From the NCBI RefSeq assembly GCF_000226565.1, contig NC_016041.1:3100001-3164000 (forward strand): DNA of 64,000 bases, written 5' to 3'. The number at the start of each line of letters is the position of its first letter. Positions within the stretch are counted from its first letter, which is position 1. The notes below the pieces were generated by a model. The model did no database searches. It worked only from the letters and a program-made list of their open reading frames with translations, and was not told the origin of the DNA. The DNA is from Glaciecola nitratireducens FR1064 (GTDB lineage: Bacteria; Pseudomonadota; Gammaproteobacteria; Enterobacterales; Alteromonadaceae). A program made the translations under genes and the position numbers. This document shows, one piece after another, positions 22,529-62,039 of this stretch.

Positions 22529-22677
22529 CAAGGACACACCTATTTGCGGTTTAAATAAATGCGCAATAAAAATTGTCGCTATTTGCCCAATTTGTCACAA
22601 CAAGGACACACCTGTTTAATGTATAAACAGGTGTGTCCTTGTTTAAATCTTGAGCCCTCATATAGGTGTGTCCTTTT
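22529..22677. repeat. GGACACACC repeat site 1: four nested copies
   Basis: Four copies of the motif lie between phoB and rdgC: forward at 22529-22545 and 22601-22618, reverse at 22624-22641 and 22660-22677. The inner two form a perfect 18-bp inverted repeat around a 5-nt loop and carry CCTGTTTA/TAAACAGG. The outer two carry CCTAT/ATAGG, so each copy matches its partner. The rdgC start is 89 bp downstream. Confidence 0.9.
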
Positions 22678-22765
22678 TACGATCGACAGAGAAATTGGTT
22701 TTGACCATCGGCGTCCAGATTGGTAGAGTGCGTCAACTTTTTTATGGATAATTATTAGAATAAAT

Positions 22766-23662
22766 ATGTGGTTCAAAAACCTTAAGTTATATCAGCTAAC
22801 AAACACGTTAGAGCTTACCGAAGAACAACTTCAAACGCAGTTAGAAAGCATGTCTTTTCGTCCGTGCGGTTCTCAAGATATCGCAACCATGGGATGGACT
22901 TCGCCATTTAGAAATAGCGACATGTTGTTCCAAAAAACAGCCAATCGTTACTGGCTAGTTCTTAAGAAAGAAGAGCGTATATTGCCTGCGTCAGTTATCA
23001 ATAATGAACTCGCTGAAAAAGTTGCACAAATTGAGGCCGAGACAGGATCGCCAGTTCCAAAGAAATCACAGCAAGATTTGAAACAAGAAATTGTCCACCG
23101 TTTGCTCCCTCAAGCGTTTACAAAAAACAGTGTGACACATGGCTTTATTTCGCCCGAGCATAATCTTGTTGTTGTTGATGCTAGTTCTGATGGAGCAGCT
23201 GAAGCGTTTCTCTCTTGTATTAGAAAATGTATTGGTTCACTTCCTGTCGTTCCCTTTGCGAAAAGTAGCAAACAGGAAACGTTAACATCGTGGGTAATGC
23301 AAGATGCACCAGAGCAAATTGAAATACTTGACGAGGCTGAATTTAAGTCACCTTCGGAAGATGGCGCAACAATTAGATGTAAATCACAAGATCTGGATGC
23401 TCCAGAAATACTAGCGCATTTGCAATCAGGTATGTTGGTACAAAAATTAAGCGTTGCGTGGCAAGACCGACTGACTTGCATCATTGGCGAAGATCTTTCT
23501 ATAAAGCGTTTAAAATTTACGGATGTCGTAAAAGAACAAAACGAGGATATTCCGAAAGACGAAATCAATGTTAAGCTAGACGCTGACTTTACGCTTATGT
23601 CTGGAGAAGTCGTTGAATTTGCAGAAGCGCTCCGCAAAATATTTGACGTTGAAGCAGAATAA
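22766..23662 (+). CDS. rdgC: Recombination-associated protein RdgC
   Basis: The 298-residue protein begins MWFKNLKLYQLT and contains FRPCGSQDIATMGWTSPF, and further on a segment starting ILPASVINNEL and KLSVAWQDRLTCII. These are hallmarks of RdgC, a nucleoid-associated ring protein that binds double-stranded DNA and limits RecA access. Length fits the E. coli protein (303 residues). It is a single gene. The region between it and phoB is filled with the interspersed repeat described at 22529. Confidence 0.96.
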   Translation: MWFKNLKLYQLTNTLELTEEQLQTQLESMSFRPCGSQDIATMGWTSPFRNSDMLFQKTANRYWLVLKKEERILPASVINNELAEKVAQIEAETGSPVPKKSQQDLKQEIVHRLLPQAFTKNSVTHGFISPEHNLVVVDASSDGAAEAFLSCIRKCIGSLPVVPFAKSSKQETLTSWVMQDAPEQIEILDEAEFKSPSEDGATIRCKSQDLDAPEILAHLQSGMLVQKLSVAWQDRLTCIIGEDLSIKRLKFTDVVKEQNEDIPKDEINVKLDADFTLMSGEVVEFAEALRKIFDVEAE

Positions 23663-23671
23663 TGATTTTCC

Positions 23672-23695
23672 GAGGTTGATCGTTCGATCAACCTC
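23672..23695 (+). terminator. Hairpin after rdgC
   Basis: GAGGTTGATC and GATCAACCTC form a perfect 10-bp stem with a GTTC loop, 9 bp after the rdgC stop. The T-rich tail starts only after a short AAAATG spacer, so termination may be incomplete. Confidence 0.6.
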
Positions 23696-23700
23696 AAAAT

Positions 23701-23942
23701 GTAATTTTATTACAAAAAAATTAGCTCACCTCAAACTTAAAATACAAAAATAGAACTGCACCAAAAAAACTCATCAAAATAGCGCAAACTCACTATTAAC
23801 GTGCATCTTAAAGAAAGCGTAGGTTTTGTGTATTTTGTAAAAACAACGTAAATCGCAAGACCAATTTGTTAACTCATAGTAATTTAATTACATATTTTAG
23901 TTAAAAAACCAATTATTTTCGATAAAAATGTAATTAAATTAC
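23701..23942. promoter_or_regulatory. Three GTAAT-N3-ATTAC dyads upstream of a DUF3718-like gene
   Basis: The very AT-rich 364 bp between rdgC and the next gene hold three palindromes of the form GTAAT-N3-ATTAC: 23701-23713 (TTT core), 23879-23891 (TTA) and 23930-23942 (TAA). The third is 84 bp before the start codon at 24027. They could be operator sites for an unidentified regulator. No protein is named. Confidence 0.4.
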
Positions 23943-24026
23943 AAAAACACTAGATCTCATCATGTAAATCAGTATTATTTATCAGGCAACAATGTTGTTG
24001 CACAATATTATTACTGGGATACTCAT

Positions 24027-24482
24027 ATGAAAACACTATTAACTACACTCGCAATCGCGACAATTACTTTTACTACTTCTGTTTCCGCAAAAAATGTTCA
24101 GTTTCGTCAAGGTGACGATACATTCGAAACTAAAGTTTGCTACACAGCAGCAACTGAAGGACTGACGGCTGCGCAAGAATTAGTGAAAGCAAGCGACAAA
24201 AATTTCAAACGCTTTACGACGCTTTTAACCTGCAACGGTAAATCCTTGGTTCAGGCTGCAAGAACATTTAATCAAGCAAACGAAGAACAAACACAAGCGA
24301 CAAGAAAAATCAGGTTCGTTACTGACGAAGCGTTAGAATCACAAGTGTGTTTGGATGCCGTAATGATTGGCGTTGATGCTGCTTTAGAGAAGCATGATAT
24401 TCAAGATGACAACATTATTTGCAACAATCGCGACATAAAAATATTTGCTAAGAAGTTTTCAGGAAAGTCGTTCTCTTTATAG
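24027..24482 (+). CDS. Secreted DUF3718-like protein with two cysteine-pair repeats
   Basis: The 151-residue protein has a signal peptide (MKTLLTTLAIATITFTTSVSA-KN). The mature part has two related halves, each with a cysteine pair: VCYTAATEGL with LTCNG, and VCLDAVMIGV with IICNN. This pattern fits the DUF3718 family found in Alteromonadales, whose function is unknown; the family call is from memory of the motif and is moderate. Disulfides within each half are likely in the periplasm. It stands alone, with AT-rich upstream DNA that contains three dyads. Confidence 0.7.
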   Translation: MKTLLTTLAIATITFTTSVSAKNVQFRQGDDTFETKVCYTAATEGLTAAQELVKASDKNFKRFTTLLTCNGKSLVQAARTFNQANEEQTQATRKIRFVTDEALESQVCLDAVMIGVDAALEKHDIQDDNIICNNRDIKIFAKKFSGKSFSL

Positions 24483-24911
24483 AGTAAGAATTCGGAACAG
24501 GATAGTTCCCAGCAAATCCTGATATGGTGAGAGATTTAAAAAGAAGCATTTTTATTTCTCTTGCCATCCAGCGACATATCGCAAAAAAAATGCAAAACAA
24601 ACATCTAATTTCGCATCCTATTTTCAAATACTTCTTTTATCAATATAGCCACTTTGTTTGCATACCTGCAATAGAAGTTTTGACTTATTCCCCCAACAAA
24701 CACCATACGTCAAAATTTACTAAGCGGCTAAAATGCCAACAGTGCTTGCCTAACGAGTACCATCCTAATCGGATCATCAATTAAGGCGACTTTCTCAACC
24801 CATGCACAATTTACAGACATAAAAAAACCCAGCATTTGCTGAGCTTTTTACACTTTAGATTCATTTACATCGGTTCTGATATGCAACCAGTGCTATATAA
24901 AAATTGCGTAC
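24483..24911. other. Intergenic region between convergent genes
   Basis: This 429 bp region separates the DUF3718-like gene from the convergent HDOD gene. It holds the HDOD terminator at 24821-24849. I see no other gene or repeat. An open frame at 24524-24784 has no Shine-Dalgarno sequence and no protein-like composition. Confidence 0.5.
24821..24849 (-). terminator. Terminator after the HDOD gene
   Basis: On the minus strand CTCAGCA and TGCTGGG pair (one T-G pair) around AA, followed by TTTTTTT. It lies 63 bp after the HDOD stop. Confidence 0.75.
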
Positions 24912-25745
24912 TTATGCAAAAATAGATTTCGCATTGTCTCTCATTTCAACAAACTCGGGTGACTGGTAAACATCAACGTCATCAAAAATACCTTTTTGCT
25001 GTGCCAATGTTAATATTTCGTCTCCATTTTCTGCTTGATTAGACAATGCCGCACCTATGCGAACAAAGTCAATATAACCAACGGTAGGTTCATTGAATTC
25101 TAAGTTTCTCCAGTGCTCTGCGCACTGAATGAAAACATCATTAAACTGCCATTCACGCATTATGCTTCCGCCGATGCGACCAGATAGCTTTTCAATTGCA
25201 ACATCAAGAAAAGTTGGGTTTGCGAAGACACTATCATGACGCTCAGCTTCCGTTAATACAGGCAGAGCACCGATGTTGGCCACGAGAGCAGAGAGCGTAA
25301 TAGTATCTAAACTCAGGTTCTTTTTGCCCGTCGCCGCTTTATAAGTCAGCATAGCAGCCATTGCATTCGCCACGATGTCGATAGTGTCAGTCCACATCTT
25401 CGCCATGTACTTTTTGACAATTTCATTCTTAGAAACAAACAGTTGTTCCATCGCTAACGCAGTTGCAATGTTCTTAACTTGATTCAAACCAATACGGGTA
25501 ACCGCTTGCGTTGTTGAAGTTACCTTTATAGAACGTCCCAGATAAGCACTATTGGAAATTTTAATCATTCGTGCGCTTAATGATGGATCCTGTCCGACCA
25601 CATCCGCCATGCCGTTTAGATTGATATTAGGGTCGTCAGCCGACTTTCTTACTTTTAATGCAATTGCAGGAAGAGTGGGTAAAACCAAGGTATCGTTGTT
25701 AATTTTTTCGACTAGTATGGTTAACAGTGCATTTTGAGTAGACAT
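24912..25745 (-). CDS. HDOD domain signalling protein
   Basis: The 277-residue protein is almost entirely an HDOD domain, a catalytically dead relative of HD phosphohydrolases used in bacterial signalling. Visible features are LPTLPAIALKVRKSADDPNINLNGMADVVGQDPSLSARMIKISNSAYLG and TTQAVTRIGLNQVKNIA (partial quotes of the family pattern), and later IGGSIMREWQFND. There is no GGDEF, EAL or receiver part. It may relay c-di-GMP or stress signals, but the partner is unknown. Confidence 0.88.
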   Translation of the reverse strand: MSTQNALLTILVEKINNDTLVLPTLPAIALKVRKSADDPNINLNGMADVVGQDPSLSARMIKISNSAYLGRSIKVTSTTQAVTRIGLNQVKNIATALAMEQLFVSKNEIVKKYMAKMWTDTIDIVANAMAAMLTYKAATGKKNLSLDTITLSALVANIGALPVLTEAERHDSVFANPTFLDVAIEKLSGRIGGSIMREWQFNDVFIQCAEHWRNLEFNEPTVGYIDFVRIGAALSNQAENGDEILTLAQQKGIFDDVDVYQSPEFVEMRDNAKSIFA

Positions 25746-25878
25746 GGAAATAAAACCTTATATTTTTATATTTTCATCAAACAAAGTAGCCAAACCTTGC
25801 TGACATTTTACTCGTTGATTGACTTTGACACGATACAACCGGAAATCGCTACTAGCCGCTTCAACCTTATGAATTTAT

Positions 25879-26241
25879 TTAGCTCTTTAATCGCTCTTGA
25901 TATGGAGGCCACCCCAGCGCTTTCCCTGCTAGAACGTGCAAATGAATATGATAAACCGTTTGCCCGCCATCTTGATTACAGTTCATAACCGTTCTAAAAC
26001 CCTGCTCTGCGACTCCTAGGCCTTTTGCGACATTTGCCGCTACGCGATGCATGTAACCGACAAGCGCTTCGTCTTCAACAGCAATATCGTTTGTCGTAGC
26101 AATTGCCTTTTTAGGAATAACTAAAAAGTGCACTGGCGCTTGCGGATTGATGTCCTTGAACACTATAACTCTCTCGTCTTCGAACAATATATCGGCAGGG
26201 ATTTCTTTATTAATAATTTTTGTAAATATTGTGTCGGTCAT
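25879..26241 (-). CDS. hinT: HIT-family nucleotide-binding hydrolase (HinT-like)
   Basis: The 120-residue protein has the histidine triad at H98, H100 and H102 (TVYHIHLHVLAG), preceded by ILFEDERVIVFKDINPQAPVHFLVIPK. HinT hydrolyses adenosine phosphoramidates and aminoacyl-AMP species. Length and motif agree with E. coli HinT. It is 46 bp downstream of uppP on the same strand. Confidence 0.93.
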   Translation of the reverse strand: MTDTIFTKIINKEIPADILFEDERVIVFKDINPQAPVHFLVIPKKAIATTNDIAVEDEALVGYMHRVAANVAKGLGVAEQGFRTVMNCNQDGGQTVYHIHLHVLAGKALGWPPYQERLKS

Positions 26242-26287
26242 ATTAACAGCCCTTTTGGTAAACGATAGACTAATTTGGGTATATAAA

Positions 26288-27088
26288 TTAACCCAAAACT
26301 ATGTATAACAATACGAAACCTAATACCAAACGATAAATCACGAATGGCAACATGCCTATTTTAGAAATCCAACTTAAAAACAAGAATATACATAAATAAG
26401 CAGCAACAAAAGAGAATGCAGCTCCGTAAAATAACTCATTCCAATTGACTTTAGCGACACTGCCGAGTAGCTCTAAGACAGAAAAAAGACCTGCGCCAAG
26501 AATAATAGGAATTGATAATAAAAAAGAAAATTTTGCGGTACTTTCGCGGTCAAGGCCAAGCATTAGGCCTGCCGTCATCGTAATGCCAGAGCGCGATGTA
26601 CCGGGAATAATGGCAATAGCTTGAGCTAGGCCGATAACGATAGCTTCTTTCAATCCAATTTTTTCAATCGTTTTAAGTTGTTTTGCTTTTATATCCGCAT
26701 ACCAGAGCAGCAGGCCGAAAATAATCGTTGTACACGCAATTACTAAAGCAGTTCTGGCGTTAAGAGCGATCCAGTCCTTCATTAAAAAGCCAAATACCAC
26801 ACCGGGAATAGTCGCTATAATGATCCACCAGGCCAATTTGCTCTGCGTTGTTTGCTGTTTTCCCAAACCATGCGAGAACCATGCAACGGTAAGGTCAACC
26901 ACATCTTTCCTCAGGTAGATAACAACCGCCATTAAGCTACCCACATGCACAGCCACATCGAATGCTAACCCTTGGTTGCGCCACCCTAATATTTCAGCAG
27001 GCAAAATTAGGTGAGCAGAACTAGAAATAGGTAAAAATTCCGTTAAACCTTGAATAATAGCGAGGATGATTATTTCAAAAAACGTCAT
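26288..27088 (-). CDS. uppP: Undecaprenyl-diphosphatase
   Basis: This integral membrane enzyme dephosphorylates undecaprenyl pyrophosphate to recycle the lipid carrier for peptidoglycan. The start at 27088 overlaps the folK stop (ATGA); an upstream ATG would add six residues. The 266-residue sequence has about eight helices and the two conserved motifs: [17 protein letters not shown] near the N terminus and [18 protein letters not shown] in the middle. It is the last gene of a folB-folK-uppP operon. Loss often lowers bacitracin resistance in other bacteria. Confidence 0.95.
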
Positions 27089-27597
27089 GTTTTCGTCTTG
27101 CTCCATGTATAGTCAGCAACCCACAAATTCTGTTTTTGTTTGTCGTACTGCTGCCATAAAGATTGATATGTTTTCTTTACCAAGGGATGCATGTGCTGTG
27201 GTACCAAATCCGCTAACGGCCTTAACACAAAAGCATTATAGAGAATTTCTTCGCGAGGTAAAACAATCGGGTTATCGATGACAGTGTCATCATACGTAAG
27301 TAAATCCAAGTCTAATGTGCGAGGGGCAAACTTTTCCGAGCCGCGCACGCGACCGTTTTCATCTTCAATTTGTTTTAAAATTTCACAAACGCGAGCGATG
27401 CTTTTATTCGTACTCGCCGACACCACTAGATTAAAGAAGGTGTCTCCTTTGAAACCAACAGACTCACTTTCGTAAACAGGTGAGAGTTGTATGCCATCAA
27501 AGGCCTTATTTAAGCCATTGAGCCCAGCATCGGTATTCGCCGCTTTGTCAATGTTAGAGCCAACACTAATAAGTATGAAATGCGGCACTAATTGCAT
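27085..27597 (-). CDS. folK: 2-amino-4-hydroxy-6-hydroxymethyldihydropteridine diphosphokinase
   Basis: The 170-residue cytoplasmic enzyme transfers pyrophosphate from ATP to 6-hydroxymethyl-dihydropterin in folate synthesis. The start [11 protein letters not shown] and the HPPK signature [13 protein letters not shown] are clear. It overlaps folB by 10 bp upstream and uppP by 4 bp downstream, so the three are translationally coupled. Its substrate is made by the folB product. Confidence 0.95.
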
Positions 27598-27941
27598 TCT
27601 CTGGTCATACTAATGGCGACATTTTCGGCCTCTTTGAGAATATCCGGCTTATTCACCGTGAGCGTCACTTTTTGCGGCTTGAACTCGTCGACTATCATAT
27701 CGAGCATCTCTTTTGCTAAAGCCTCGAGTAAAAAATATGACGATTCATTTGCAAGTTCAGCCAAACGCTGTGCCACCTTTCCATAGTCAATCGTATTTCT
27801 AACATCATCTGTAGCGGCCGCTACACTAAGGTCGGTATGCATATCGACGTCGAGTATTAATCTTTGCTTTGCGTGTCTTTCAAAATCAAAAACACCAATA
27901 AGTGCGTGGACCGTTAGGCCCTGTATTTTAACTAAATCCAT
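27588..27941 (-). CDS. folB: Dihydroneopterin aldolase
   Basis: The 117-residue enzyme begins MDLVKIQGLTVHALIGVFDFERHAKQRL, shown here only in family terms: the usual strand, then the IGV.. and ..ERxxKQ segments. It has DYGKVAQRLAE and ends in VTLTVNKPDIL. It cleaves dihydroneopterin to the hydroxymethyl-pterin used by FolK. It is the first gene of folB-folK-uppP and diverges from plsY with 83 bp between starts. Confidence 0.94.
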   Translation of the reverse strand: MDLVKIQGLTVHALIGVFDFERHAKQRLILDVDMHTDLSVAAATDDVRNTIDYGKVAQRLAELANESSYFLLEALAKEMLDMIVDEFKPQKVTLTVNKPDILKEAENVAISMTRECN

Positions 27942-28024
27942 GACAATAACTTAATCGCCTAGCGATTTTTTTCACCTTCGAGTAATCTAGCGTCAAGTGT
28001 AACCGCAACATAGGGACCAAGTAT

Positions 28025-28627
28025 ATGATTTCATTCACGCTGATGATGATTTTTGCTGCATATATTTTAGGTTCCATTTCCAGTGCTATTGTCATTTGCT
28101 ATCTTTTTGGGAAGGGTGATCCGCGCAACCAAGGCTCCGGAAACCCAGGTGCCACCAATGTGCTGCGCATAGCTGGGCCGTTTGCTGCAGTTTTAGTTTT
28201 AGTCTTCGATATATTGAAGGGAACAGTAAGCGTTTATGCTTCTTTCCTATTAGGGGTTGATGCCATTTCTATAGGAGCGATCGCGATCGCTGCATGTCTT
28301 GGCCATATGTATCCCGTATTTTTTAAATTTAGGGGCGGAAAAGGCGTAGCGACTGCATTAGGTTGTCTCATTTCAATGGGATTTAACTTAGCCGGTTTGT
28401 TACTGGGTAGTTGGATATTAGTCGTCATAGTGACAGGCTACTCGTCATTAGCGGCCATTATTACAGTAATGCTTGCCCCAATTTATACTCTTTTTTTCAA
28501 ACCCGAATATCTATACGCAGTGATTATGCTGTCTATTCTTATTATATGGCAGCATCGCGATAATATTCGTCGCTTATTACGCGGAGAAGAAAGTAAAATT
28601 TGGAAAAAAGGCAAGGTAAATGAATAG
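28025..28627 (+). CDS. plsY: Glycerol-3-phosphate acyltransferase PlsY
   Basis: The 200-residue membrane protein has about five helices and the PlsY motifs: GSISSAIVICYLFGKGDPRNQGSGNPGATNVLR (named by its segments SSAIV, GSGNPGATN), KGTVSVY, and FRGGKGVATALG. It makes lysophosphatidate from acyl-phosphate and glycerol-3-phosphate in the inner membrane. The gene diverges from folB, the usual neighbour in gammaproteobacteria. Confidence 0.95.
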   Translation: MISFTLMMIFAAYILGSISSAIVICYLFGKGDPRNQGSGNPGATNVLRIAGPFAAVLVLVFDILKGTVSVYASFLLGVDAISIGAIAIAACLGHMYPVFFKFRGGKGVATALGCLISMGFNLAGLLLGSWILVVIVTGYSSLAAIITVMLAPIYTLFFKPEYLYAVIMLSILIIWQHRDNIRRLLRGEESKIWKKGKVNE

Positions 28628-28649
28628 TGCCCGCTTTATAAAGCGGGCA
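28628..28649 (+). other. Perfect hairpin after plsY
   Basis: TGCCCGCTTT and AAAGCGGGCA form a perfect 10-bp stem with a TA loop right after the plsY stop. No T run follows on this strand, so it may protect the 3' end or work with Rho. Confidence 0.55.
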
Positions 28650-28753
28650 TTCACATCACGATAAATAGAAAAGTGGATTTCACTATCCACGTCACATAAC
28701 TCTTTCTGGCCAAGGCATTTTTGCTTTTGAGCGCCTTTTTCGCTTTTTTGTTT

Positions 28754-29767
28754 CTATATCGCTTGAAGTGAATCTAGCGGCCATCGTGGCATCGCTTTCG
28801 TATCTAGCCCTACAGATTCTCCAGCTAGCAAGCGCTGCGCTCCAGCAAACGCAATCATTGCGCCATTATCTGTACAGTATTCAAAAGCAGGATAATACAC
28901 CTCAATTCCTTTACGGCGATTCAAGTCTTGCAAAGTGGCCCTCAGCTGTTTGTTGGCGCTAACACCGCCCGCTATTACAAGCCGCTTTTGTTTTGTTTGC
29001 TTTAACGCACGCTGGCATTTAATCAGCAAAGTATCGACCACTGCATCTTGAAATGCATAGGCTATGTTTGCTTTTGTTTGTTCACTGCCATCGCAAGCTC
29101 GAATAGTATTTGCTGCGAATGTTTTCAAGCCGCTAAAGCTCATGTCCAAGCCTGGTCTATCGGTCATTGGTCGAGGAAACTTGTAATGCCCTGCTTCGCC
29201 CTTTTCTGCCAATTTCGCTAATAAAGGGCCACCTGGATAATCAAGTCCAAGGAGTTTCGCTGTTTTATCAAATGCTTCACCTGCAGCGTCATCTAATGAT
29301 TCACCTAATACCGTATATTGCCCAATGCCCTGCACATCGACAATCATGCTATGACCACCTGATACCAATAAAGCAATGAAAGGAAAAGGCGGTGGGTTAT
29401 CATCTAACATCGGGGCTAATAAATGCCCTTCCATGTGATGAACACCGACGGCAGGCACGCCCCAAGCGTAGGCTAAACTGCGCCCCACTGACGAACCGAC
29501 AAGTAACGCTCCCACCAAGCCTGGTCCGCGGGTAAATGCAACACCATCAATATCGCTAGCACTCAAACCTGAGTTAGCTATTGTACGTTTAATTAAAGGC
29601 ACGATTTTTCGGACGTGATCCCGTGATGCCAGCTCTGGCACAACACCACCGTAATCAGCATGTAGCTTAACTTGACTATAAAGTTCGTGAGCTAGTAAAC
29701 CATTGTCTGTATCGTATATCGCGACGCCAGTTTCGTCACAAGAGGTTTCAATACCTAAAATTTTCAT
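28754..29767 (-). CDS. tsaD: tRNA N6-threonylcarbamoyladenosine synthase subunit TsaD
   Basis: The 337-residue protein is the catalytic subunit for the essential t6A37 modification. It starts [19 protein letters not shown] and has the metal-binding [11 protein letters not shown] (H111 and H115) and [10 protein letters not shown]. The C-terminal [12 protein letters not shown] is also present. It works with TsaB, TsaC and TsaE, which are not in the window. It diverges from rpsU, the usual arrangement in gammaproteobacteria. Confidence 0.97.
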
Positions 29768-30125
29768 GTAAATACTCAGTAAAAAAATAAAGCGCTATAT
29801 GTAGTAGTATATACAGGCCCTAGGATAAAGCTGTTAAATAAGCCTTGAGACACGCTTTTATAAAAGCCTTAAAAGTAGCTTTGTAATGCTTTCAATTACT
29901 TACGTGGCAACTAACAAAAAAGCATTAAAATAGCGAATGATCACAGTGCAATCGATATGCTGCTAGTATATACTGCGCATCGCTGACGGAAAACAAACAA
30001 AAGTGAATATTTTTGTACTAAATCTCTTTACAAGCAGTTGCAAAAGTTTTAGTATTCCGCACCATTTTTTAAGCCCGGGTAATAAAACATACCTGGTAGA
30101 TAAAACATCTTAAGGTGATGAATTA
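29768..30125. promoter_or_regulatory. Divergent promoter region tsaD/rpsU
   Basis: These 358 bp between divergent tsaD and rpsU should carry the promoter of the macromolecular-synthesis operon. The decamer TAGTATATAC occurs twice (about 29805 and 29964), which could represent -10-like or operator sites. The rpsU Shine-Dalgarno sequence AAGGTGATG is visible. No operator is assigned. Confidence 0.4.
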
Positions 30126-30341
30126 ATGCCAATCGTGAAAGTAAGAGATAACGAACCGTTTGATATCGCGCTTAGACGCTTCAAACGTTCATGTGAGAAA
30201 GCTGGTGTACTATCTGAAGTTCGCCGTCGCGAATTTTTCGAAAAACCAACTTGGGAACGCAAGCGCAAGAAAGCTGCTGCTAAAAAGCGTCACATGAAAA
30301 AGTTAGCTCGCGAAAACGCACGTCGTATCAAGTTGTACTAA
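30126..30341 (+). CDS. rpsU: 30S ribosomal protein S21
   Basis: The 71-residue basic protein begins [20 protein letters not shown] and ends [13 protein letters not shown], as in other S21 proteins. It helps mRNA start-site pairing at the 3' end of 16S rRNA. It is the first gene of the macromolecular-synthesis operon rpsU-yqeY-dnaG-rpoD. Confidence 0.98.
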
Positions 30342-30384
30342 ATCGCGTAGCGTAACTTAACTGGTCTCGAGCCAATTAAATTCA

Positions 30385-34990: not shown

Positions 34991-35100
34991 ACAAAAAGGA
35001 CACAAAAAGGACACACCTATTTCTTCAACTGAACGAAGCGCAAACAGAAGCGCAAACAGGACACACCTAATTGTTAAGCCGAAATAGGTGTGTCTTGTTT
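34991..35100. repeat. GGACACACC repeat site 2
   Basis: Forward copies lie at 35004-35022 and 35055-35072, and a reverse copy at 35082-35100. The second forward copy and the reverse copy form an imperfect hairpin. The first copy is preceded by an 11-bp tandem duplication (ACAAAAAGGAC at 34991 and 35002). The second is preceded by a 12-bp one (AAGCGCAAACAG at 35036 and 35048). It lies between the rpoD and RND-operon terminators. Confidence 0.9.
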
Positions 35101-45043: not shown

Positions 45044-45087
45044 AAACTCCGAATAAAGAAACTCCGAATAAAGACACACCTGTTTAT
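45044..45087. repeat. GGACACACC repeat site 3 with 15-bp flanking duplication
   Basis: One forward copy (AAAGACACACCTGTTTAT, 45070-45087) lies after the Lrp-type gene. It is immediately preceded by a perfect 15-bp tandem duplication (45044-45058 and 45059-45073), whose second unit ends exactly where ACACACC begins. No reverse copy is present here. Confidence 0.85.
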
Positions 45088-46270: not shown

Positions 46271-46352
46271 TTAAAAGGACACACCTGTTTATTGATTTTC
46301 GGTTAAACAGGTGTGTCCTTTTAAGCATCCTTTTAAGCATCCTTTTAAGCAT
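46271..46352. repeat. GGACACACC repeat site 4: perfect 21-bp palindrome with 12-bp triplet
   Basis: A forward copy (46271-46291) and a reverse copy (46304-46324) form a perfect 21-bp inverted repeat with a 12-nt spacer. The reverse copy merges into three perfect tandem 12-mers CCTTTTAAGCAT (46317, 46329, 46341). Read on the other strand these end exactly before ACACACC, as at other sites. Confidence 0.92.
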
Positions 46353-53196: not shown

Positions 53197-53224
53197 CAAA
53201 AAGGACCGAAAGGTCCTTTTTTTT
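53197..53224 (+). terminator. Terminator after dsbA
   Basis: AAAAAGGACC and GGTCCTTTTT pair around a GAAA loop and are followed by more T, 17 bp after the dsbA stop. Confidence 0.93.
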
Positions 53225-53233: not shown

Positions 53234-53412
53234 TTCACCTGAACAAACACTTAAACAAAGACACACCTATTTTGAGTCAAAAACACCTAAACAAGCACCT
53301 AAACAAGGACACACCTATTTAGTGTCAAACACCTAAACAAGGACACACCTATTTAGTGTCAAATAGCCTGTAGTAAAGACAAACTTTTTCATCTCGAAAT
53401 AGGTGTGTCCTT
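53234..53412. repeat. GGACACACC repeat site 5: three tandem copies and one reverse
   Basis: Forward copies lie at 53256-53273, 53304-53320 and 53338-53354, and a reverse copy at 53396-53412. The last two forward copies lie in a near-perfect 34-bp tandem unit ending in AGTGTCAAA. CACCTAAACAAG occurs as a perfect tandem pair at 53284 and 53296 and again at 53330, each time ending directly before GACACACC. The site separates dsbA from its lipoprotein paralogue. Confidence 0.9.
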
Positions 53413-53533
53413 ATTCTGACTTTTTATTGCGACTTAGCTGGGAATCGTCCCAATTACATCGAATAGGTTTACCATTGTTCAAAAGCATCTATAATCATAT
53501 GCTTAACCAATGGTAATTATTTTAGGAAGTTAC

Positions 53534-54253: not shown

Positions 54254-54274
54254 TTAAGCACAATAAGGATTATC

Positions 54275-55213: not shown

Positions 55214-55226
55214 GGTATTTTAAACT

Positions 55227-55502
55227 ATGAAAGCATCTGCATGTCATATCCTGGTCAAAACGAAAGAAGAAGCTGACCGTATTAAATCTCAGTTAGACAA
55301 AGGTGCAAACTTTCAAACGTTAGCTAAGAAGCATAGCTTATGCCCTTCGGCCAAGAAAGGTGGAGACTTAGGTGAATTTCGCCGTGGTGACATGGTGCCA
55401 GCATTTGAAAATGTCGTATTTAAAAAAGAAATATTGACCGTTCATGGCCCTGTAAAAACACAATTTGGTTTTCATCTTATAAAAACGCTTTATAGAGCTT
55501 AG
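55227..55502 (+). CDS. ppiC: Parvulin-type peptidyl-prolyl isomerase
   Basis: The 91-residue cytoplasmic protein is a single rotamase domain: ACHILVKTKEEADRI, FQTLAKKHSLCPSAKKGGDLGEFRRGDMVPAFE and KTQFGFHLIKTL (partial). It matches PpiC (Par10) in length and motif order. It catalyses cis/trans proline isomerisation. It follows the methyltransferase-like gene by 13 bp and is closed by a terminator. Confidence 0.95.
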   Translation: MKASACHILVKTKEEADRIKSQLDKGANFQTLAKKHSLCPSAKKGGDLGEFRRGDMVPAFENVVFKKEILTVHGPVKTQFGFHLIKTLYRA

Positions 55503-55525
55503 TGCCTTTATAGCTTTAGCAAAAC

Positions 55526-55562
55526 TAAGGGAGCATATCATTGCGATAGAGCTCCCTTTTTA
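55526..55562 (+). terminator. Terminator after ppiC
   Basis: AGGGAGC and GCTCCCT pair around an inner TATC/GATA stem and run into TTTT. It is located 25 bp after the ppiC stop, between convergent ppiC and the SulP gene. Confidence 0.85.
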
Positions 55563-55592
55563 TTGTCTCAATTAAGTGAGTGCAGCCAAGCG

Positions 55593-57158
55593 CTAGCCTA
55601 AGGTATCTGAAGCAACCCGATATCGTGGATCTTCATTCACGTTAATTTCAACGTACTCACCGGCCTTTTTAAGCAACACTCTGCATTCAGGACTGATATG
55701 CCTGATGTGCAGTTTTTTACCTTGCTCCTTGTATTTGTCAGCGAGGCCATCTAATGCATCAATGCCAGATGAATCCCAAATTCGTGATTCTTTAAAATCA
55801 ATAACGACATCACTAGGATCGTTCTGCGGATCAAATATTTCTCTAAAATGAGTGACCGAGCCGAAGAAAAGAGGCCCTTCTAAATCGTAAACTTTCCAAC
55901 CATCATCATCCGTATAATTCTTTGCCATAATGTGTGTCGCATGTTTCCAAGCGAATACCAGCGCAGACACGATAACACCGACCACAACAGCTATGGCCAA
56001 ATCGGCAATAACAGTCACCCCTGTTACCAAAAACAAAACAAAAGCATCTTCTTTATTCACGCCGCGAACAATTCTGAAAGAGGCCCATTCAAATGTCGCG
56101 ATAACAACAACAAACATAACGCCAACCAATGCTGCCAGTGGAACCATTTCGATAAGCGGCGCTGCGAATAGGATAAAACCAAGAAGTACCAATGCCGCAG
56201 TGATGCCGGATAACCGTCCTCGCCCGCCTGAATTGATATTGATCATACTCTGACCGATCATGGCACAACCACCCATACCACCAAAGAAACCATTAACCGT
56301 ATTAGCCACACCTTGACCCACACATTCTTGATTACCACGACCTCTGGTATCCGTCATCTCGTCGATGAGCGACAAGGTTAATAATGATTCAATCAGGCCT
56401 ACAAGCGCCAAGATAACTGCCGTTGGTAAAATAATGTAGAGTGTTTCAAGGGTAAAAGGGATAACGGGAATTGCGAAGGTTGGTAATTCGCCGGCTAAAG
56501 TAACCGAATCTTGCTGCGCCTCTGGCACCATTTCTCGAACGAAATCGATGACCGTTCTTGCGTCCAAATCGAAACCGTGCACTATCGCAGTGACGGCAGC
56601 GATCGCGACTAAAGAGGCTGGTATTGCTGTCGTCAATTTTGGCAATAAATAAATTATCGCCATCGTTAAACCGACTAAACCAAGCATGATGTAGAGCGCC
56701 GTCCCACTCATCCACTCTAGGTCGCCTAAAGGCCCCATTATTTTAAACTGACCCAATTGTGCTAGAAAGATAACAATCGCTAAGCCATTGACGAATCCGA
56801 GCATAACCGGATAAGGCACCAAACGAATGAACTTACCAAGCTTGAATACACCGGCCATGATTTGCAAAAAGCCCGCTAATATCACAGCGGCAAACAAATA
56901 TTGAACACCATGTTGAGCAACTAGAGCAACCATGACTACCGCCATCGCGCCTGTTGCACCTGAAATCATTCCAGGGCGACCACCTATTGCAGATGTTATC
57001 AGTCCCATCATGAAAGCGGCGTATAAACCAACCATGGGTTCAACACCAGCTACAAACGCAAATGCCACCGCTTCAGGAACTAAAGCAAAAGCAACGGTGA
57101 CACCAGAGAGAATGTCATTCTTCACATTCCCTTTGGTACCATTTATCAAATTAAACAT
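55593..57158 (-). CDS. SulP-family anion transporter with STAS domain
   Basis: The 521-residue membrane protein has about twelve helices. It starts with the SulP signature ([20 protein letters not shown] and [17 protein letters not shown]) and has a conserved [21 protein letters not shown]-terminal STAS domain (about 410-510: [20 protein letters not shown]) follows. SulP proteins move sulfate, bicarbonate or other anions with Na+ or H+. The bicarbonate type (BicA-like) is common in marine bacteria, but the substrate is undecided here. It is a single gene converging on ppiC. Confidence 0.92.
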
Positions 57159-57256
57159 ACTTATATTTCTATTGTTTCAAAATTGGCGCGAGTCTAGCAG
57201 ATAATATGCTCAATTTCTTTTAACAGAATGTTAAAAATGCTGTGTTTACTCTAATT

Positions 57257-57571
57257 TTACTTGGCCCCTCCTCCCAAACAATTTGGAGAATCGGGAGACA
57301 CGCCATGCTTCTTATTCCATTCCTCTAAAGTATAGGTATGCTGAGCTAATGCATGCACCGGACCCGCCAATTCCTCTGACAATAGTTGATTTACTGAACG
57401 CTGTCGTTGAATCAACCTTTTACCCTCGAAGTCACTTGAAACAATCGTCACTTTGAAATGGGTTTCTGAGTTTGCAGGCACGTTATGCATATGACTTTCG
57501 TTTAATACTTCCAAATATGATAACTCGAAGTTTTTATTTAGTTTATCAATAATACCTTGCTCTACTGTCAT
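57257..57571 (-). CDS. bolA: BolA family protein
   Basis: The 104-residue protein has the BolA fold markers: YLEVLNESHMHNVPANSETH, FKVTIVSSDFEGKRLIQRQR and GPVHALAQHTYTLEEW. It resembles E. coli BolA itself in length and tail, not IbaG. BolA controls shape and stress responses and works with glutaredoxin in Fe-S handling. It lies between the SulP gene and alkB, all on the minus strand. Confidence 0.94.
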   Translation of the reverse strand: MTVEQGIIDKLNKNFELSYLEVLNESHMHNVPANSETHFKVTIVSSDFEGKRLIQRQRSVNQLLSEELAGPVHALAQHTYTLEEWNKKHGVSPDSPNCLGGGAK

Positions 57572-57621
57572 TTCGTCTCTCTCTTTATTGTTGTCATTCG
57601 CAATAACACATTCTTAAATTG

Positions 57622-57667
57622 GCATGCCGTTAATTCAACATGCTGTTAAACAAGACACACCTATTTA
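57622..57667. repeat. GGACACACC repeat site 6
   Basis: One forward copy (CAAGACACACCTATTTA, 57651-57667) lies between bolA and alkB. The preceding bases form an imperfect tandem (CATGCCGTTAA at 57623 and CATGCTGTTAA at 57639) that ends at the motif. No reverse copy is seen. Confidence 0.8.
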
Positions 57668-57687
57668 CACTCAAGTCATAAAATTAC

Positions 57688-58296
57688 CTACACCATAATT
57701 TTGCGAAAAGTGAAGTTTAACCGAGGTTCAATTTGTTTTTTTGTCTTAGCAATTCCATGCTGCCAGTATTTTTGAGTCTTGCCACTCATAATCAATAATG
57801 AGCCGTGTTCCAATGGCAATCTGAACTTTTCACCATTAACTTTATGCTTGAAGTCAAAGTTTCTTGCTTCACCTAAAGACACCGAGGCAATTATTGGTTC
57901 CGGACCAAGTTCTGGCTCATTATCAGAGTGCATTCCCATGCTATCTTTCCCGTACCGATAAAAATTAGCCAACACTGAGTTAAATGATGAGCCACATTGC
58001 CGTTCGCATTTTACTTTCAATTTATGCAGGTCGTCCTGCCAAGGAAGTGGTGACATTTTCACCCCTGAATACTCATAATCTGTTCCAGCATCACCATACC
58101 AAGCTTGCAGTCGAGGTATTTTTACCGTTTTACCAAAGATTTTAATAAGCCCTTCGCTCCAATCCAGCTCTCGTTGGAACAGCTCATACAATGAATCAGC
58201 TGTTTTATTATCGAGCCAATTAGCTAAATATTGTACCTTTGCATCAGCCAAGGGTAGACTCTGCGGACTGTTATTGGAAAAAAGACATTGCTGCAT
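57688..58296 (-). CDS. alkB: AlkB-like 2-oxoglutarate/iron dioxygenase
   Basis: The 202-residue protein shows the iron ligands H123 and D125 (GMHSDNEPELG) and H180, and the 2-oxoglutarate arginine R192 within RLNFTFR. Substrate strands include RLQAWYGDAG and RNFDFKHKVNG. It belongs to the AlkB/ALKBH2-like group and should demethylate alkylated DNA or RNA bases. The rest of the ada operon is not adjacent. It diverges from rlmG over a short gap. Confidence 0.9.
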   Translation of the reverse strand: MQQCLFSNNSPQSLPLADAKVQYLANWLDNKTADSLYELFQRELDWSEGLIKIFGKTVKIPRLQAWYGDAGTDYEYSGVKMSPLPWQDDLHKLKVKCERQCGSSFNSVLANFYRYGKDSMGMHSDNEPELGPEPIIASVSLGEARNFDFKHKVNGEKFRLPLEHGSLLIMSGKTQKYWQHGIAKTKKQIEPRLNFTFRKIMV

Positions 58297-58349
58297 AAAA
58301 TCTCAGAAATTAGGTTGAGTTGCTCAAAGTCGACAACACGAGTAATTCA

Positions 58350-59522
58350 ATGAATACACACTTTACTGTATTTGAGCGCAATTTACATTTAGAACGTTAC
58401 CCAGCGAAGCATCAACATGTCAGCCTTCAAGCATGGGATGCCGCTGATGAGTACATTATTGAGCATGTTGAAACCTGCTCATTATTAACGAACAGCTCAA
58501 ATAAAGACACACCTGTTATCGTGATTAATGACGACTTTGGCGCCTTGACCTGTTGGTTTAGCGACAAAAATCCGATCTTTATTTCAGACTCATGGATTTC
58601 TCATAAAAGTGTTATGACAAATCTCATGATCAATGGATTGGAAACCGACAATGTCGAATTCTGTGATGCACTGACTGATCTCAAGGACATAATTAATACA
58701 AAAGCGAAAGTTGTATTGATAAAAATACCACGCTCACTCGCGCTTTTAGAGCAACAGCTCATAACGCTGCAGTCTGTGTTAGATAAAGATTCGACTATTA
58801 TTGCAGCAGGTAAAGTAAAAACCGTACAAAACTCTGTTTTGAAGTTATTCGAAAAATACATCGGCAAAACAACAACGTCTTTAGCAAAAAAGAAAGCTAG
58901 GCTGATTTTTTCAAAATATGACGGCATCAAAACAGAAAAATCCCCCTATCCCACAATCGTATCTGACCCGTTAATACCATTTTCTCTTAGCAATCATGCA
59001 AATGTATTTTGCCGAGAACACTTGGATATTGGTGCTCGAATATTATTAAAGAATCTGCCAAATGCACTTGATAAAAAGGTGATTGATTTAGGCTGTGGCA
59101 ATGGCGTAATAGGTGTGTCTATATTGGACCAAAACAAAGATGCACATGTCACCTTCGTGGATGAGTCATTTATGGCGGTTGAATCGGCAAAAGAAAATGT
59201 AATGAACCACATTGGCAATCTAGACCGAGCAACATTTATCGTCAGTAATTGCTTAGAGGAATTGTTAAAAGTTGAATCGTCGAACTATGACATCGTGCTA
59301 TGTAACCCGCCATTTCATCAACAAAACACAATTACTGATCACGTGGCTCATCAAATGTTTAACGATGCTAAAATGGCACTCAAGCATGGCGGGGAATTAA
59401 GAATCGTAGGTAATAGACACTTAGATTATCCAATAAAGTTAAAGAAACTTTTTGGTGGTTACGAAGTCATTGATAGTAATAAAAAGTTCAGTATTTTATC
59501 AACTTACAAAGCAAGGCAATAA
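58350..59522 (+). CDS. rlmG: 23S rRNA guanine-1835 N2-methyltransferase RlmG
   Basis: The protein of 390 residues starts at the ATG at 58350 (MNTHFTVFERNLHLERYP, aligning with the E. coli start); a TTG ten codons upstream is less likely. The C-terminal methyltransferase domain has the SAM loop DLGCGNGVIGVS and the NPPF catalytic motif (LCNPPFHQQN). It methylates G1835 of 23S rRNA. Compared with E. coli, the loop between ADEY and PVIVIND is about seven residues longer and includes NKDTPV, encoded by a GGACACACC-type repeat sequence. Confidence 0.92.
   Translation: MNTHFTVFERNLHLERYPAKHQHVSLQAWDAADEYIIEHVETCSLLTNSSNKDTPVIVINDDFGALTCWFSDKNPIFISDSWISHKSVMTNLMINGLETDNVEFCDALTDLKDIINTKAKVVLIKIPRSLALLEQQLITLQSVLDKDSTIIAAGKVKTVQNSVLKLFEKYIGKTTTSLAKKKARLIFSKYDGIKTEKSPYPTIVSDPLIPFSLSNHANVFCREHLDIGARILLKNLPNALDKKVIDLGCGNGVIGVSILDQNKDAHVTFVDESFMAVESAKENVMNHIGNLDRATFIVSNCLEELLKVESSNYDIVLCNPPFHQQNTITDHVAHQMFNDAKMALKHGGELRIVGNRHLDYPIKLKKLFGGYEVIDSNKKFSILSTYKARQ
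58500..58517 (+). repeat. GGACACACC-like copy inside rlmG
   Basis: AATAAAGACACACCTGTT matches the intergenic repeats over its whole length and is read as NKDTPV. It falls at a loop that is about 21 bp longer than in E. coli RlmG, so an in-frame insertion is plausible. Confidence 0.5.
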
Positions 59523-59523
59523 C

Positions 59524-60135
59524 ATGACTAGACTGGCATTATCGTTTCTCGCTCTTTTTGCAATCAGCTTTAGCTTAGCGGCTAACACACAGAAGCAGCC
59601 CGGTGAAAACATCCAGAAAGACAATTATTATCCAATGGTGAAGTTTGAAACAAGCTTGGGTGATTTAGTTATCGAACTGAATAGAAGAAGAGCCCCTGTT
59701 ACCGTTAATAATTTCTTAAACTACGTTGTAAGAGGTGAGTTTGACAATACTCTGTTTCATCGCGTTGTTACGGGTTACATAGTGCAAGGTGGTGGTTACG
59801 CGCCTGAATATAAAGAGAAAAAAGCTGGTCGCACAATTATAAATGAATCGGGCAACGGGCTAAAAAATGAAATGTATAGCATTGCGATGGCAAGAGAGGA
59901 CGACCCGCATTCTGCAAAACGTCAGTTCTTTTTTAATATGAAGGATAACGATAATTTGGATCCGGGGAAGACTTGGGGCTATGCCGTTTTCGGCACCGTA
60001 ATTGAAGGCACTGATGTGCTTGATAAAATTGGACTAGTCGAAACAGAATACAAAGCTCTTATTCGTTTTCAAGACGCTCCAAAAGAAGATGTGGTGCTGA
60101 TCTCAGCCACGGTTTTACCCGAACCACAATTATAA
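59524..60135 (+). CDS. Periplasmic cyclophilin-type peptidyl-prolyl isomerase
   Basis: The 203-residue protein starts at 59524, one base after the rlmG stop, with AAGG at good spacing. It has a signal peptide (MTRLALSFLALFAISFSLAA). The cyclophilin domain includes VKFETSLGDLVIEL, FDNTLFHRVVTGYIVQGGGY and KRQFFFNMKDNDNLD. It resembles periplasmic PpiA and helps fold exported proteins. It forms an operon with rlmG. Confidence 0.92.
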   Translation: MTRLALSFLALFAISFSLAANTQKQPGENIQKDNYYPMVKFETSLGDLVIELNRRRAPVTVNNFLNYVVRGEFDNTLFHRVVTGYIVQGGGYAPEYKEKKAGRTIINESGNGLKNEMYSIAMAREDDPHSAKRQFFFNMKDNDNLDPGKTWGYAVFGTVIEGTDVLDKIGLVETEYKALIRFQDAPKEDVVLISATVLPEPQL

Positions 60136-60251
60136 ATTAATGGCGCTCCCAACGTTATTGAAGAATTAGCTAAATACATTATTCTTAAACTGAATATGTA
60201 TTTCGAGTTTACCTGTCTATACTGAACACTTAGTTAAGAAAAAGGAAAATG

Positions 60252-61892
60252 ATGAAAGCATCTGATTTAATGGTAAAAGCGCTAGAAGCAGAAGGCGTTG
60301 AGTATATTTTTGGTATACCGGGGGAAGAAAACCTCGATTTATTAGAATCCTTACGTAGTTCATCCATCAAACTTATTCTAACCCGGCATGAACAAGGTGC
60401 CGGCTTTATGGCGGCCACTTATGGTCGTTTGACCGGAAAAGTCGGCGTTTGTTTATCAACCTTAGGCCCTGGCGCAACAAATTTAGTAACCCCGGCAGCA
60501 TATGCACAACTCGGTGCCATGCCCATGCTGATGATCACCGGACAAAAGCCCATCAAGACCAGCAAGCAAGGACGATTTCAGGTCATTGATGTTGTCGATA
60601 TGATGCGCCCTATTACAAAATATACGACGCAAGTTGTCAGTGGTGACCGCATACCTTCCGTTGTAAGAGAAGCATTCAGACTGGCTTCAGAAGAGCGACC
60701 TGGTGCAGTCCATATTGAACTTCCAGAAGATATTGCTGATGAATCAACAAGCGCTCACTTGTTAAAACCAAGCGTCGCTAGAAGACCTATTGCAGAATAT
60801 AAGGCCATTAGCCGCGCTGTCGATATGATTGAAAAAGCAAAATCGCCAGTGCTCTTGATAGGAGCAGGCGCGAATCGAAAACTCACAGCTAAAATGCTTC
60901 AAGAGTTTGTCGACAAAACTGGAATTCCTTATATAACAACACAAATGGGTAAAGGCGTTTTAGATGAAAGTGGAAAATTGTTTATGGGCAACACAGCGTT
61001 GTCTTCAGGCGATTTTGTTCATCGAGTTATTGAAAGAGCTGATTTAATTATCAACGTTGGACATGACGTTGTTGAAAAACCCCCTTTCTTTATGGAGGAC
61101 GACAGTCAGCAGGTCATTCACATTAACTTTGATTCTGCAGCGGTTGACCCTGTCTATTTCCCACAGTTAGAAGTTATTGGTGACATAGCAAACAGTATTT
61201 GGCAAATCAAAGAAACCATAGAGCCGCAAGATAGTTGGAAGCTTGAGTTTTATAGAGATGTTCATGATGCCTATATTGAGCATAGAAACGCATCAGAAGA
61301 TGATGACCGTTTTCCTATATTACCCGAACGGTTTGTTCGAGAAATCAGAAAAGCCATGCCCAAAGACGGTATTGTTACCTTAGACAACGGCGTTTACAAA
61401 ATTTGGTTTGCTCGCAACTACCCAGCGTATCTGCCGAACACAGTGCTACTCGATAATGCGCTAGCAACCATGGGTGCAGGACTGCCTTCAGCAATTGCGG
61501 CGAAGCTCGTTTATCCCGAGAAGGCTGTTATTACCGTTTGTGGTGACGGTGGTTTTATGATGAATAGTCAGGAATTAGAAACGGCGGTTAGGCTAAATCT
61601 GCATATTGTCGTCATCATACTGCGTGATGATGCCTATGGAATGATTAAGTGGAAGCAAGCCAACATGGAGTTTGAGAACTTCGGTTTAGACTATGGCAAT
61701 CCAGATTTTGTTAAATATGTAGAATCATATGGCGGCAAAGGCTGGCGAATATCAGCAACCAAAGACTTACTGCCTACCGTACAAAAATGTTTAACCGAAC
61801 CCGCTGTTCATCTTATAGATGTGCCGGTTGACTACAGTCTTAATGATGAAACGTTGAACAAAACGATTCGAAAGCTTAGTGCGAAGCTATAA
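60252..61892 (+). CDS. Acetolactate synthase-like ThDP enzyme
   Basis: The 546-residue protein starts at the second of two ATGs (60252; AAGGA is 5 bp away). It has the ThDP-enzyme order: E48 in LTRHEQGAGFMAATYGR, a central domain, and the ThDP-binding GDGGFMMNSQELETA followed by ILRDDAYGMIKWKQ. The glutamine-rich GQKPIKTSKQGRFQVIDVVDM resembles catabolic acetolactate synthases (AlsS/BudB), which make 2-acetolactate from pyruvate. No small regulatory subunit and no alsD gene is near. It is followed by an aldehyde dehydrogenase, which suggests a joint pathway. The true substrate is uncertain. Confidence 0.85.
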   Translation: MKASDLMVKALEAEGVEYIFGIPGEENLDLLESLRSSSIKLILTRHEQGAGFMAATYGRLTGKVGVCLSTLGPGATNLVTPAAYAQLGAMPMLMITGQKPIKTSKQGRFQVIDVVDMMRPITKYTTQVVSGDRIPSVVREAFRLASEERPGAVHIELPEDIADESTSAHLLKPSVARRPIAEYKAISRAVDMIEKAKSPVLLIGAGANRKLTAKMLQEFVDKTGIPYITTQMGKGVLDESGKLFMGNTALSSGDFVHRVIERADLIINVGHDVVEKPPFFMEDDSQQVIHINFDSAAVDPVYFPQLEVIGDIANSIWQIKETIEPQDSWKLEFYRDVHDAYIEHRNASEDDDRFPILPERFVREIRKAMPKDGIVTLDNGVYKIWFARNYPAYLPNTVLLDNALATMGAGLPSAIAAKLVYPEKAVITVCGDGGFMMNSQELETAVRLNLHIVVIILRDDAYGMIKWKQANMEFENFGLDYGNPDFVKYVESYGGKGWRISATKDLLPTVQKCLTEPAVHLIDVPVDYSLNDETLNKTIRKLSAKL

Positions 61893-61920
61893 TTTCTAAA
61901 AATATGCTAACTCAGTGAAT

Positions 61921-62039
61921 CTAAATAAAGAAAGCTAAATAAAGACACACCTATTAAGCGCTTTTCATTATTTTCACCACCGAGCTTAAAATAGCACCTA
62001 AAACTAGACACACCTGTTTCACAATAAGGTGTGTCTTTA
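61921..62039. repeat. GGACACACC repeat site 7 upstream of an aldehyde dehydrogenase
   Basis: Forward copies at 61940-61957 and 62004-62019 and a reverse copy at 62023-62039. The last two form a short hairpin (loop CAC). The first copy follows a near-tandem pair CTAAATAAAG (61921 and 61935) that ends exactly before ACACACC. The hairpin ends 17 bp before the ALDH start codon at 62056 and may affect its translation. Confidence 0.85.

Follow-up and report, generated by a model that had tools for sequence, protein, structure and literature searches.

A 19-bp repeat family clustered around a RAYT-type gene in Glaciecola nitratireducens and related species

Background

The closest described systems to the one treated here are the REP/REPIN-RAYT systems (REPtrons) of Pseudomonas, Stenotrophomonas and Escherichia coli, in which a repetitive extragenic palindromic (REP)-associated tyrosine transposase (RAYT) of the HUH/tyrosine type is accompanied by a cognate, mostly intergenic repeat, the repeats form inverted pairs, and each RAYT has its own variant (PMC2817692, PMC3116915, PMC6006769). 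The mechanisms of dissemination of REP sequences are described as poorly understood (PMC8266576). The above features of REPtrons are shared by a repeat family found in a window of 64,000 nucleotides of the Glaciecola nitratireducens FR1064 chromosome (positions 3,100,001 to 3,164,000 of the 4,134,229-bp single contig; genome G000), which belongs to a cluster containing a RAYT-type gene. Unlike a REP, the unit of this family, AANAARGACACACCTRTTT, has neither a GT[AG]G foot nor a palindromic structure, and its copies, numbering in tens, are regional instead of spread over the whole genome; the protein is nearer to TnpAY1 subclass 2.3. We propose that the repeats are probably the target and terminal sequence of the cluster RAYT and were spread by it locally.

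That REPs can be restricted to the surroundings of a rayt gene, over 200 kb at most, was described for Thauera and three marine gammaproteobacteria by Nunvar et al. (2010; PMC2817692), so that regional clustering as such was already known. The Glaciecola repeats likewise lie near a rayt gene and not genome-wide. Those REPs are described as inverted palindromic, however, and the ones of Thauera were explained by gene transfer, whereas the Glaciecola repeat is non-palindromic and its gene is syntenic in five species. The distinction from the marine examples follows their description in that paper, and an overlap with them is possible.

The TIRYT/TIRtron systems, with the inverted repeat GGGGWSAS (Di Nocera 2013; PMC3733652), share a RAYT-like gene with flanking inverted repeats that lack a REP fold, and some families of terminal inverted repeats (TIRs) are repeated in the genome; GGGGWSAS overlaps GACAS. 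Twenty of 26 TIRYTs belong to TnpAY1 subclass 2.1 (PMC6006769, PMC3733652). In contrast, the leading GGG is not conserved in our repeats, the protein has subclass 2.3 motifs, and the sections at hand of the TIRYT paper describe no strong local population. Subclass 2.3 is characterized by YVDLNP, WE, a median length of 325 residues, occurrence in Alteromonadales or Chromatiales, and the printed motif NHYH (PMC6006769). The Glaciecola protein agrees in YVDLNP, WE (as WES), length (333 residues) and order, and has NHNH instead of NHYH, although the published table may show the commonest letters only. Judged by motifs, length and order rather than by tree placement, it appears most like subclass 2.3. 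For subclasses 2.1 and 2.3, Quentin 2018 reports no REP-like sequences from either automatic or manual search (PMC6006769); in the 2.3-like group, by contrast, terminal inverted repeats and local families were found here.

Genomic distribution of the repeat and the associated RAYT-type gene

An earlier note on the window had proposed a genome-wide count of the repeat core. This placed the motif far above chance, in a regional rather than a dispersed pattern: allowing up to two mismatches, 38 of 39 matches to the 16-mer in the whole G000 genome fell within 2,970,959–3,212,567 (242 kb), against 4 matches for the reversed pattern. The shorter core RGACACACC occurs 81 times, 56 times in 2.96–3.24 Mb and 25 times in the other 3.85 Mb; as its reversed control gave 26 matches over the whole genome, the count outside the region does not exceed background. 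Among 60 genomes scanned, including G000, more than two matches were found in five only, all Glaciecola (33 in G000, 21 in G007, 18 in G008, i.e. Glaciecola sp. 33A, 23 in G009 and 12 in G010). In each of these carriers the matches are concentrated in one region, and the main regions are orthologous, lying in the same syntenic block; stray matches occur at 347 kb in G009, at 115 and 549 kb in G007, and singly on other contigs. Horizontal transfer of the repeat-rich region was rejected, as the block is syntenic in five genomes and carries core genes, which by eye we take to be tsaD, dnaG, rpoD and hslU. About 16.5 kb of G000 genes (3,163,655–3,180,085, from window position 63,655 to past the right end) are free of repeats, and no counterpart of them was found in the orthologous blocks fetched for the other four carriers.

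The earlier note had seen no transposase, and had suggested looking for a Y1 transposase gene near the clusters. None was seen in the window itself, but a 333-residue RAYT-type (HUH/tyrosine) open reading frame (ORF) lies inside the repeat cluster at 3,185,147–3,186,148 on the + strand (window coordinate 85,147), so that the cognate gene is situated 21 kb past the right end. Five cores (3,184,853–3,185,010) lie directly upstream of it. The protein contains YVDLNP, WES and NHNH; NHNH is also present in its four orthologues, while NHTH is the consensus of 74 relatives and NHYH occurs in one of ten genus proteins. NHxH and the tyrosine of YV[DE]LNP are common to all ten genus proteins, and NHxH and Y..LNP are invariant in the 74 relatives. 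On these motifs the protein is predicted to have the HUH motif and single catalytic tyrosine of a RAYT/TnpAREP. For the G008 orthologue, an AlphaFold model (pLDDT 89.7, pTM 0.90) has as its best match in the PDB 4er8, the E. coli RAYT with REP hairpin DNA (probability 1.00, target TM 0.65); next come transposases of the IS200/IS605 type, interspersed with some unrelated chains. The predicted fold is thus that of a TnpAREP; a sequence search of the PDB with the RAYT gave no match. The Pfam domain Y1_Tnp (PF01797) scores 17.9 bits on the G000 protein, below the cut-off of 23, and this model alone therefore misses the cluster RAYT.

Among 13 genomes of the genus, the five repeat carriers have a RAYT orthologue of 65–100% identity. 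Relatives of 41–50% are found in G012, G002, G006 (two) and G004, and no RAYT relative was found in G001, G003, G005 and G011. The eight genus genomes without a close orthologue have 0–2 repeat matches. In G008, broken remnants of distant RAYTs with in-frame stops are present on contigs C1 (221,780) and C16 (4,089). A different Y1 gene of G000 (810,579–810,920; NHVH type, 254 residues) is the only Pfam Y1_Tnp match of that genome; it was rejected as a partner, having no repeat with up to two mismatches nearby and its nearest RGACACACC at 744,850 and 900,020.

Many intergenic slots occupied in G000 are shared: 8 with G007, 9 with G008, 9 with G009 and 11 with G010 (one slot differing in each case), compared to 5 with G012 (8 differing). 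A slot holds between 0 and 5 copies. What precedes the core depends on the lineage: TA stands before GACACACC in 22 of 34 G010 copies, and the copies in the other four carriers mostly have AA or AG. Shared slots together with lineage-specific units suggest that the slots are old and that the units turn over or are homogenised.

The constancy of the slots in five species could also be expected if the repeats were, like matS or parS, host binding sites maintained by selection in one chromosomal domain, with the RAYT being a domesticated binder or a bystander. The sharp 19-bp unit, the confinement to one block and the retention of in-frame genic copies would fit such sites. The variable copy number per slot does not, nor does the lack of the repeat in genus members without a close RAYT orthologue; moreover, other RAYTs elsewhere have local families of their own with other sequences, two of them in one genome (see below). 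Because of these other families, we regard a domain-specific site as unlikely and put it second.

Local repeat families of other RAYT genes

The commonest 9-mers near the more distant RAYTs of the genus are GGACACACC in G012 (37 in 160 kb), GGACACGCA on contig 7 of G006 (24 in 80 kb), GACTGTCCA on contig 10 of G006 (13 in 20 kb), and AGGACAGTC in G002 (21 in 140 kb, a local count). In whole-genome searches of G012, 35 of 38 matches to GGACACACCH fell in C1:108–188 kb, with the RAYT at 136 kb (reversed control 11). The two RAYTs of G006 provide a control within one genome: 29 of 35 matches to GGACACKCAA fell in C7:75–129 kb with the RAYT at 85 kb (reversed control 13), 27 of 37 matches to GGACAGTCYA in C10:68–120 kb with the RAYT at 103 kb (reversed control 8), and neither pattern matches the contig of the other RAYT. 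In G004, 27 of 30 matches are on three contigs, one of which carries the RAYT (control 4).

Outside the genus, Salinimonas chungwhensis has 17 of 34 matches in a 37-kb stretch around its RAYT (reversed control 26), and Alteromonas halophila has 104 matches in several clusters (control 21). Confinement is strict in Glaciecola, and only partial elsewhere. A bias of copies towards the upstream side of the gene (41/56 in G000, 22/35 in G012, 21/29 and 21/27 in G006; all but the G000 count made manually) was dropped as a rule, since Salinimonas has only 4 of 17, likewise a manual count.

Terminal inverted repeats in related loci

The flanks of related genes were analysed for the best 80 of 587 confirmed relatives from a contig scan, 77 after removal of three loci of the discovery clade. 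A complete ORF could be read at 74 of the 80, which supplied the 74 relatives compared above. The motif GACA[CG]NC[AC], framed from the discovery clade, its genus and a first look at the tested loci, was searched within 400 bp of the gene at loci with at least 300 bp of flank; its form in the discovery clade is GACACACCT. It was found upstream on the + strand at 56 of 74 loci and downstream on the - strand at 49 of 76, compared to 4 and 5 loci, respectively, in the wrong orientation and 2–8 loci per category for the reversed control. The flanking on both sides that is typical of TIRtrons was found at 43 of 73 loci (reversed control 1). At least six copies of one GACASNCN variant within 10 kb were present at 16 of 71 non-Glaciecola loci (0–3 for nine control patterns) and fewer than six of any variant at the other 55, a count that is no independent test since GACASNCN was chosen after viewing some of these loci.

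Near three RAYTs of Colwellia and Shewanella (loci L137, L151 and L167), ATGGGTGGC and GCCACCCAT are strongly over-represented, and could represent the GACA motif in a GCCA form. Beside a Pseudoalteromonas RAYT (L165), ACAGACTA with overlapping 8-mers occurs 16 times in 11 kb, probably as a tandem array of another kind. On contigs C1, C2 and C5 of A. halophila (G062), + copies of RGACACCCAC are followed after a gap of about 1.2–1.35 kb by - copies, as if each of these clusters held a RAYT gene; there are at least five among the matches listed, and one gap is, by position only, the RAYT of locus L145.

A motif that forms terminal inverted repeats in relatives could also belong to an ordinary insertion sequence (IS), the copies being leftover ends of a locally hopping, since deleted RAYT element and the present gene being inert. 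The spacing in A. halophila, which equals the size of the gene in at least five clusters, and the broken distant-RAYT pieces in Glaciecola sp. 33A would agree with this. We nevertheless consider it decidedly improbable, as the gene is open with its catalytic residues kept in five species, the repeat variants differ between lineages that share slots (the TA of G010), and the pairing of copies is non-random.

Repeat unit, pairing and 5' edge

Over 188 RGACACACC copies in the fetched regions of the five carriers, the information content is 0.00 at -7 but 0.94 at -6, and at the other end 0.69 at +12 but 0.03 at +13. These sharp edges define a unit of about 19 bp, AANAARGACACACCTRTTT, a single copy of which can also be represented as GACACACCTATTT; the flanks are dissimilar except for weak A-rich stretches at -16 to -12 and +19 to +20. 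In the window, AAGGACACACCTRTTT with up to three mismatches gave 22 matches, against 0.91 (standard deviation (sd) 0.91) in shuffled sequences; at least two of these (1961 and 27434, with three mismatches each) look like chance. All 18 copies listed in the earlier note were recovered at its seven intergenic sites, 0–4 bases from where it had placed them. The elements are:

22527–22545, +: 19-bp element AANAARGACACACCTRTTT (16-mer search, edges from information content)
22599–22617, +: left arm of a convergent pair, the pair forming a 19-bp hairpin (z -10.2)
22625–22643, -: right arm of the pair with the 22599 copy (16-mer search, fold)
22660–22678, -: element with one mismatch (16-mer search)
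35004–35022, +: element with an 11-nt tandem duplication directly 5' (16-mer and duplication searches)
35054–35072, +: left arm of a convergent pair, 5' sequence GAAGCGCAAACA doubled (doubling judged by eye)
35082–35100, -: right arm of the pair with the 35054 copy (16-mer search, fold)
45067–45085, +: element with a 15-nt tandem duplication directly 5' (16-mer and duplication searches)
46272–46290, +: left arm of a convergent pair (pair fold z -9.8)
46305–46323, -: right arm of the 46272 pair, a 12-nt unit tandemly repeated directly 5'
53254–53272, +: element about 30 bp past a terminator-like hairpin at 53198–53221 (16-mer search, terminator scan)
53302–53320, +: element with a 12-nt tandem duplication 5' (16-mer and duplication searches)
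53336–53354, +: direct repeat of the 53302 copy with a 34-bp period (16-mer search)
53397–53415, -: element (16-mer search)
57648–57666, +: element (16-mer search)
58500–58518, +: element within rlmG, in frame, encoding NKDTP (core search, comparison of relatives)
61938–61956, +: element, 5' sequence CTAAATAAAG doubled (doubling judged by eye)
62001–62019, +: left arm of a convergent pair (16-mer search, fold)
62023–62041, -: right arm of the 62001 pair, adjoining the start of the next gene (fold)

The window has 22 exact RGACACACC cores, 17 of them in intergenic DNA; an additional one, at 62028, is classed as genic solely through the choice of an upstream GTG start by the ORF caller. In 3.10–3.23 Mb, 33 of 49 copies are intergenic, whereas intergenic DNA makes up 13.5% there (genes being ORFs of at least 100 residues). 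The copy that the earlier note had suspected in rlmG (58503) is real, NKDTP being kept in four of five relatives with KIDTP in G010; rlmG of G012 has four extra residues before NKDTP. A second rlmG match, at 59107 on the opposite strand, falls in a Gly-Val-Ser conserved in 5/5 relatives and is probably due to chance. Of 18 coding-strand cores inside genes in 2.96–3.24 Mb, 16 encode DTP (KDTP in 10 cases), and some of them lie in loops that differ in length among relatives; a part of the 18 must be put down to chance.

Neighbouring copies within 200 bp are arranged convergently in 30 cases, in tandem in 40 and divergently in one. Four chosen convergent pairs all form hairpins (z -4.2 to -10.2), i.e. 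inverted pairs able to form a hairpin, as in REPINs, are present. Hairpins at gene ends might also be terminators or other RNA elements spread by selection, and both the folding of 4/4 pairs and the intergenic excess would accord with that. Many copies are single or tandem, however, and three of four chosen single copies do not fold (z -0.94 to +0.49; the fourth -2.77); the locality and the link to the RAYT would also be left unexplained, which makes this the least credible explanation, one we hardly expect to hold. The statement in the earlier note that the copies mostly follow terminators found no support: in 45–64 kb only the 53254 copy is directly behind a terminator-like site, in a scan of that part which was itself uninformative (21 sites against 16.8, sd 4.8, in shuffles).

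Tandem doubling of 10–23 nt was found directly 5' of 19 of 179 GACACACCT copies, the doubled unit ending at the GAC of the core, and on the 3' side of one of 179; in one of these 19 cases the core is itself part of an array, and cases at orthologous copies are not independent of each other. Between G008 and G009, indels of 8–60 nt number 13 in 9 repeat slots (4.17 per kb), compared to 6 in 32 other intervals (0.81 per kb), and 11 of the 13 are at most 40 nt 5' of a core; between G007 and G009 the rates are 3.38 and 1.57 per kb, and 5 of 9 are that close on the 5' side. These comparisons exclude intervals whose lengths differ by a factor of more than 1.8.

Proposed mode of spread

The association of the RAYT with the repeat is well supported. 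Their co-occurrence, the terminal inverted repeats of the relatives and the structural match to 4er8 bear out the earlier suggestion that REP/RAYT mobilisation is the closest model, although the genome-wide dispersal and the REP-like palindrome that go with this model were not found, the family being local and its single 19-bp unit non-palindromic. Pairing, terminal position and scars point to cutting at the 5' edge and local spread by the RAYT. We suggest that the enzyme would cut and rejoin single-stranded DNA, with the 5' edge of GACACACC as the cutting site, and that units or convergent pairs would be copied into nearby single-stranded DNA, leaving short 5' duplications. The RAYT or its single-strand intermediate would work mostly near its own gene, either through nascent protein staying near the gene or through a short-lived intermediate; with such action the repeat population would gather within about 100 kb of each such gene. 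This population would mostly be inherited in place, with units turning over and becoming alike within a lineage.

Several points weigh against local spread by the RAYT. Transposition, cleavage and binding by this protein are what we infer, none having been observed, and we know of no RAYT transposition seen so far. The slots common to five genomes imply that the majority of copies are old and were inherited rather than newly inserted, and RGACACACC is missing from about 18 kb of the cluster (3,162,036–3,180,254), for most of which no counterpart was found in the blocks fetched from the other carriers, so any recent spread must be slow. The G000 gene itself has motif copies upstream only, with none downstream in the stretch read. 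Its protein scores 40.9 bits (1.7e-10) with the NCBIfam RAYT model NF047646, whose cut-off is 80 (this cut-off, as that of PF01797, belongs to the model and is not a feature of the protein), and the match to 4er8 is marginal by its E-value of 1.3e-3. The 5' doublings are unevenly distributed (8/52 in G000, 0/23 in G007, 5/33 in G008, 1/38 in G009, 5/33 in G010), are absent from the other families (0/37 in G012, 0/28 and 0/13 in the G006 families, 0/28 in G002), and could stem from replication slippage; the random positions of the same regions, with doublings at 0.02–0.3%, were drawn from all DNA and not just intergenic DNA. In the 5' counts of 11/13 and 5/9, indels near both sides were scored as 5'. 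Finally, in four genomes of Alteromonas, Marinomonas and Aliiglaciecola (contigs matched by coordinates), only 9/28, 8/19, 5/25 and 3/54 matches lie near (about 7 kb) the query RAYT; the remaining ones, which exceed the reversed controls (1, 6, 2 and 5), form other clusters or lie scattered, and these genomes may hold further RAYTs.

A more far-reaching version is that subclass 2.3 RAYTs are strictly cis-acting, each writing its own short repeat, and in time rewriting it in concert, at lasting slots within about 100 kb; the locally confined, non-palindromic system would then be found throughout the subclass and might have been retained for a host function. This is conceivable, but we are inclined to doubt it. 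If the strict cis action were true, each RAYT would mark its own chromosome neighbourhood.

Conclusion

Within the open-licence literature searched, the cognate inverted repeat of a subclass-2.3-like group and its non-palindromic, 19-bp amplified form are new, as are the local families per gene in one genus and the scars at the 5' edge. The Pfam model used for searches of such genes can miss the 2.3-like group. This group now gains a candidate recognition sequence, RGACA[CG]NC, that is testable in vitro. One gene, about 50 copies, shared slots in five species and scars at one edge make up a small comparative system and a compact natural test of the local copying of short DNA by RAYT enzymes, which allows one to ask directly why the spreading of repeats by single-strand transposases is sometimes limited to the surroundings of the transposase gene.

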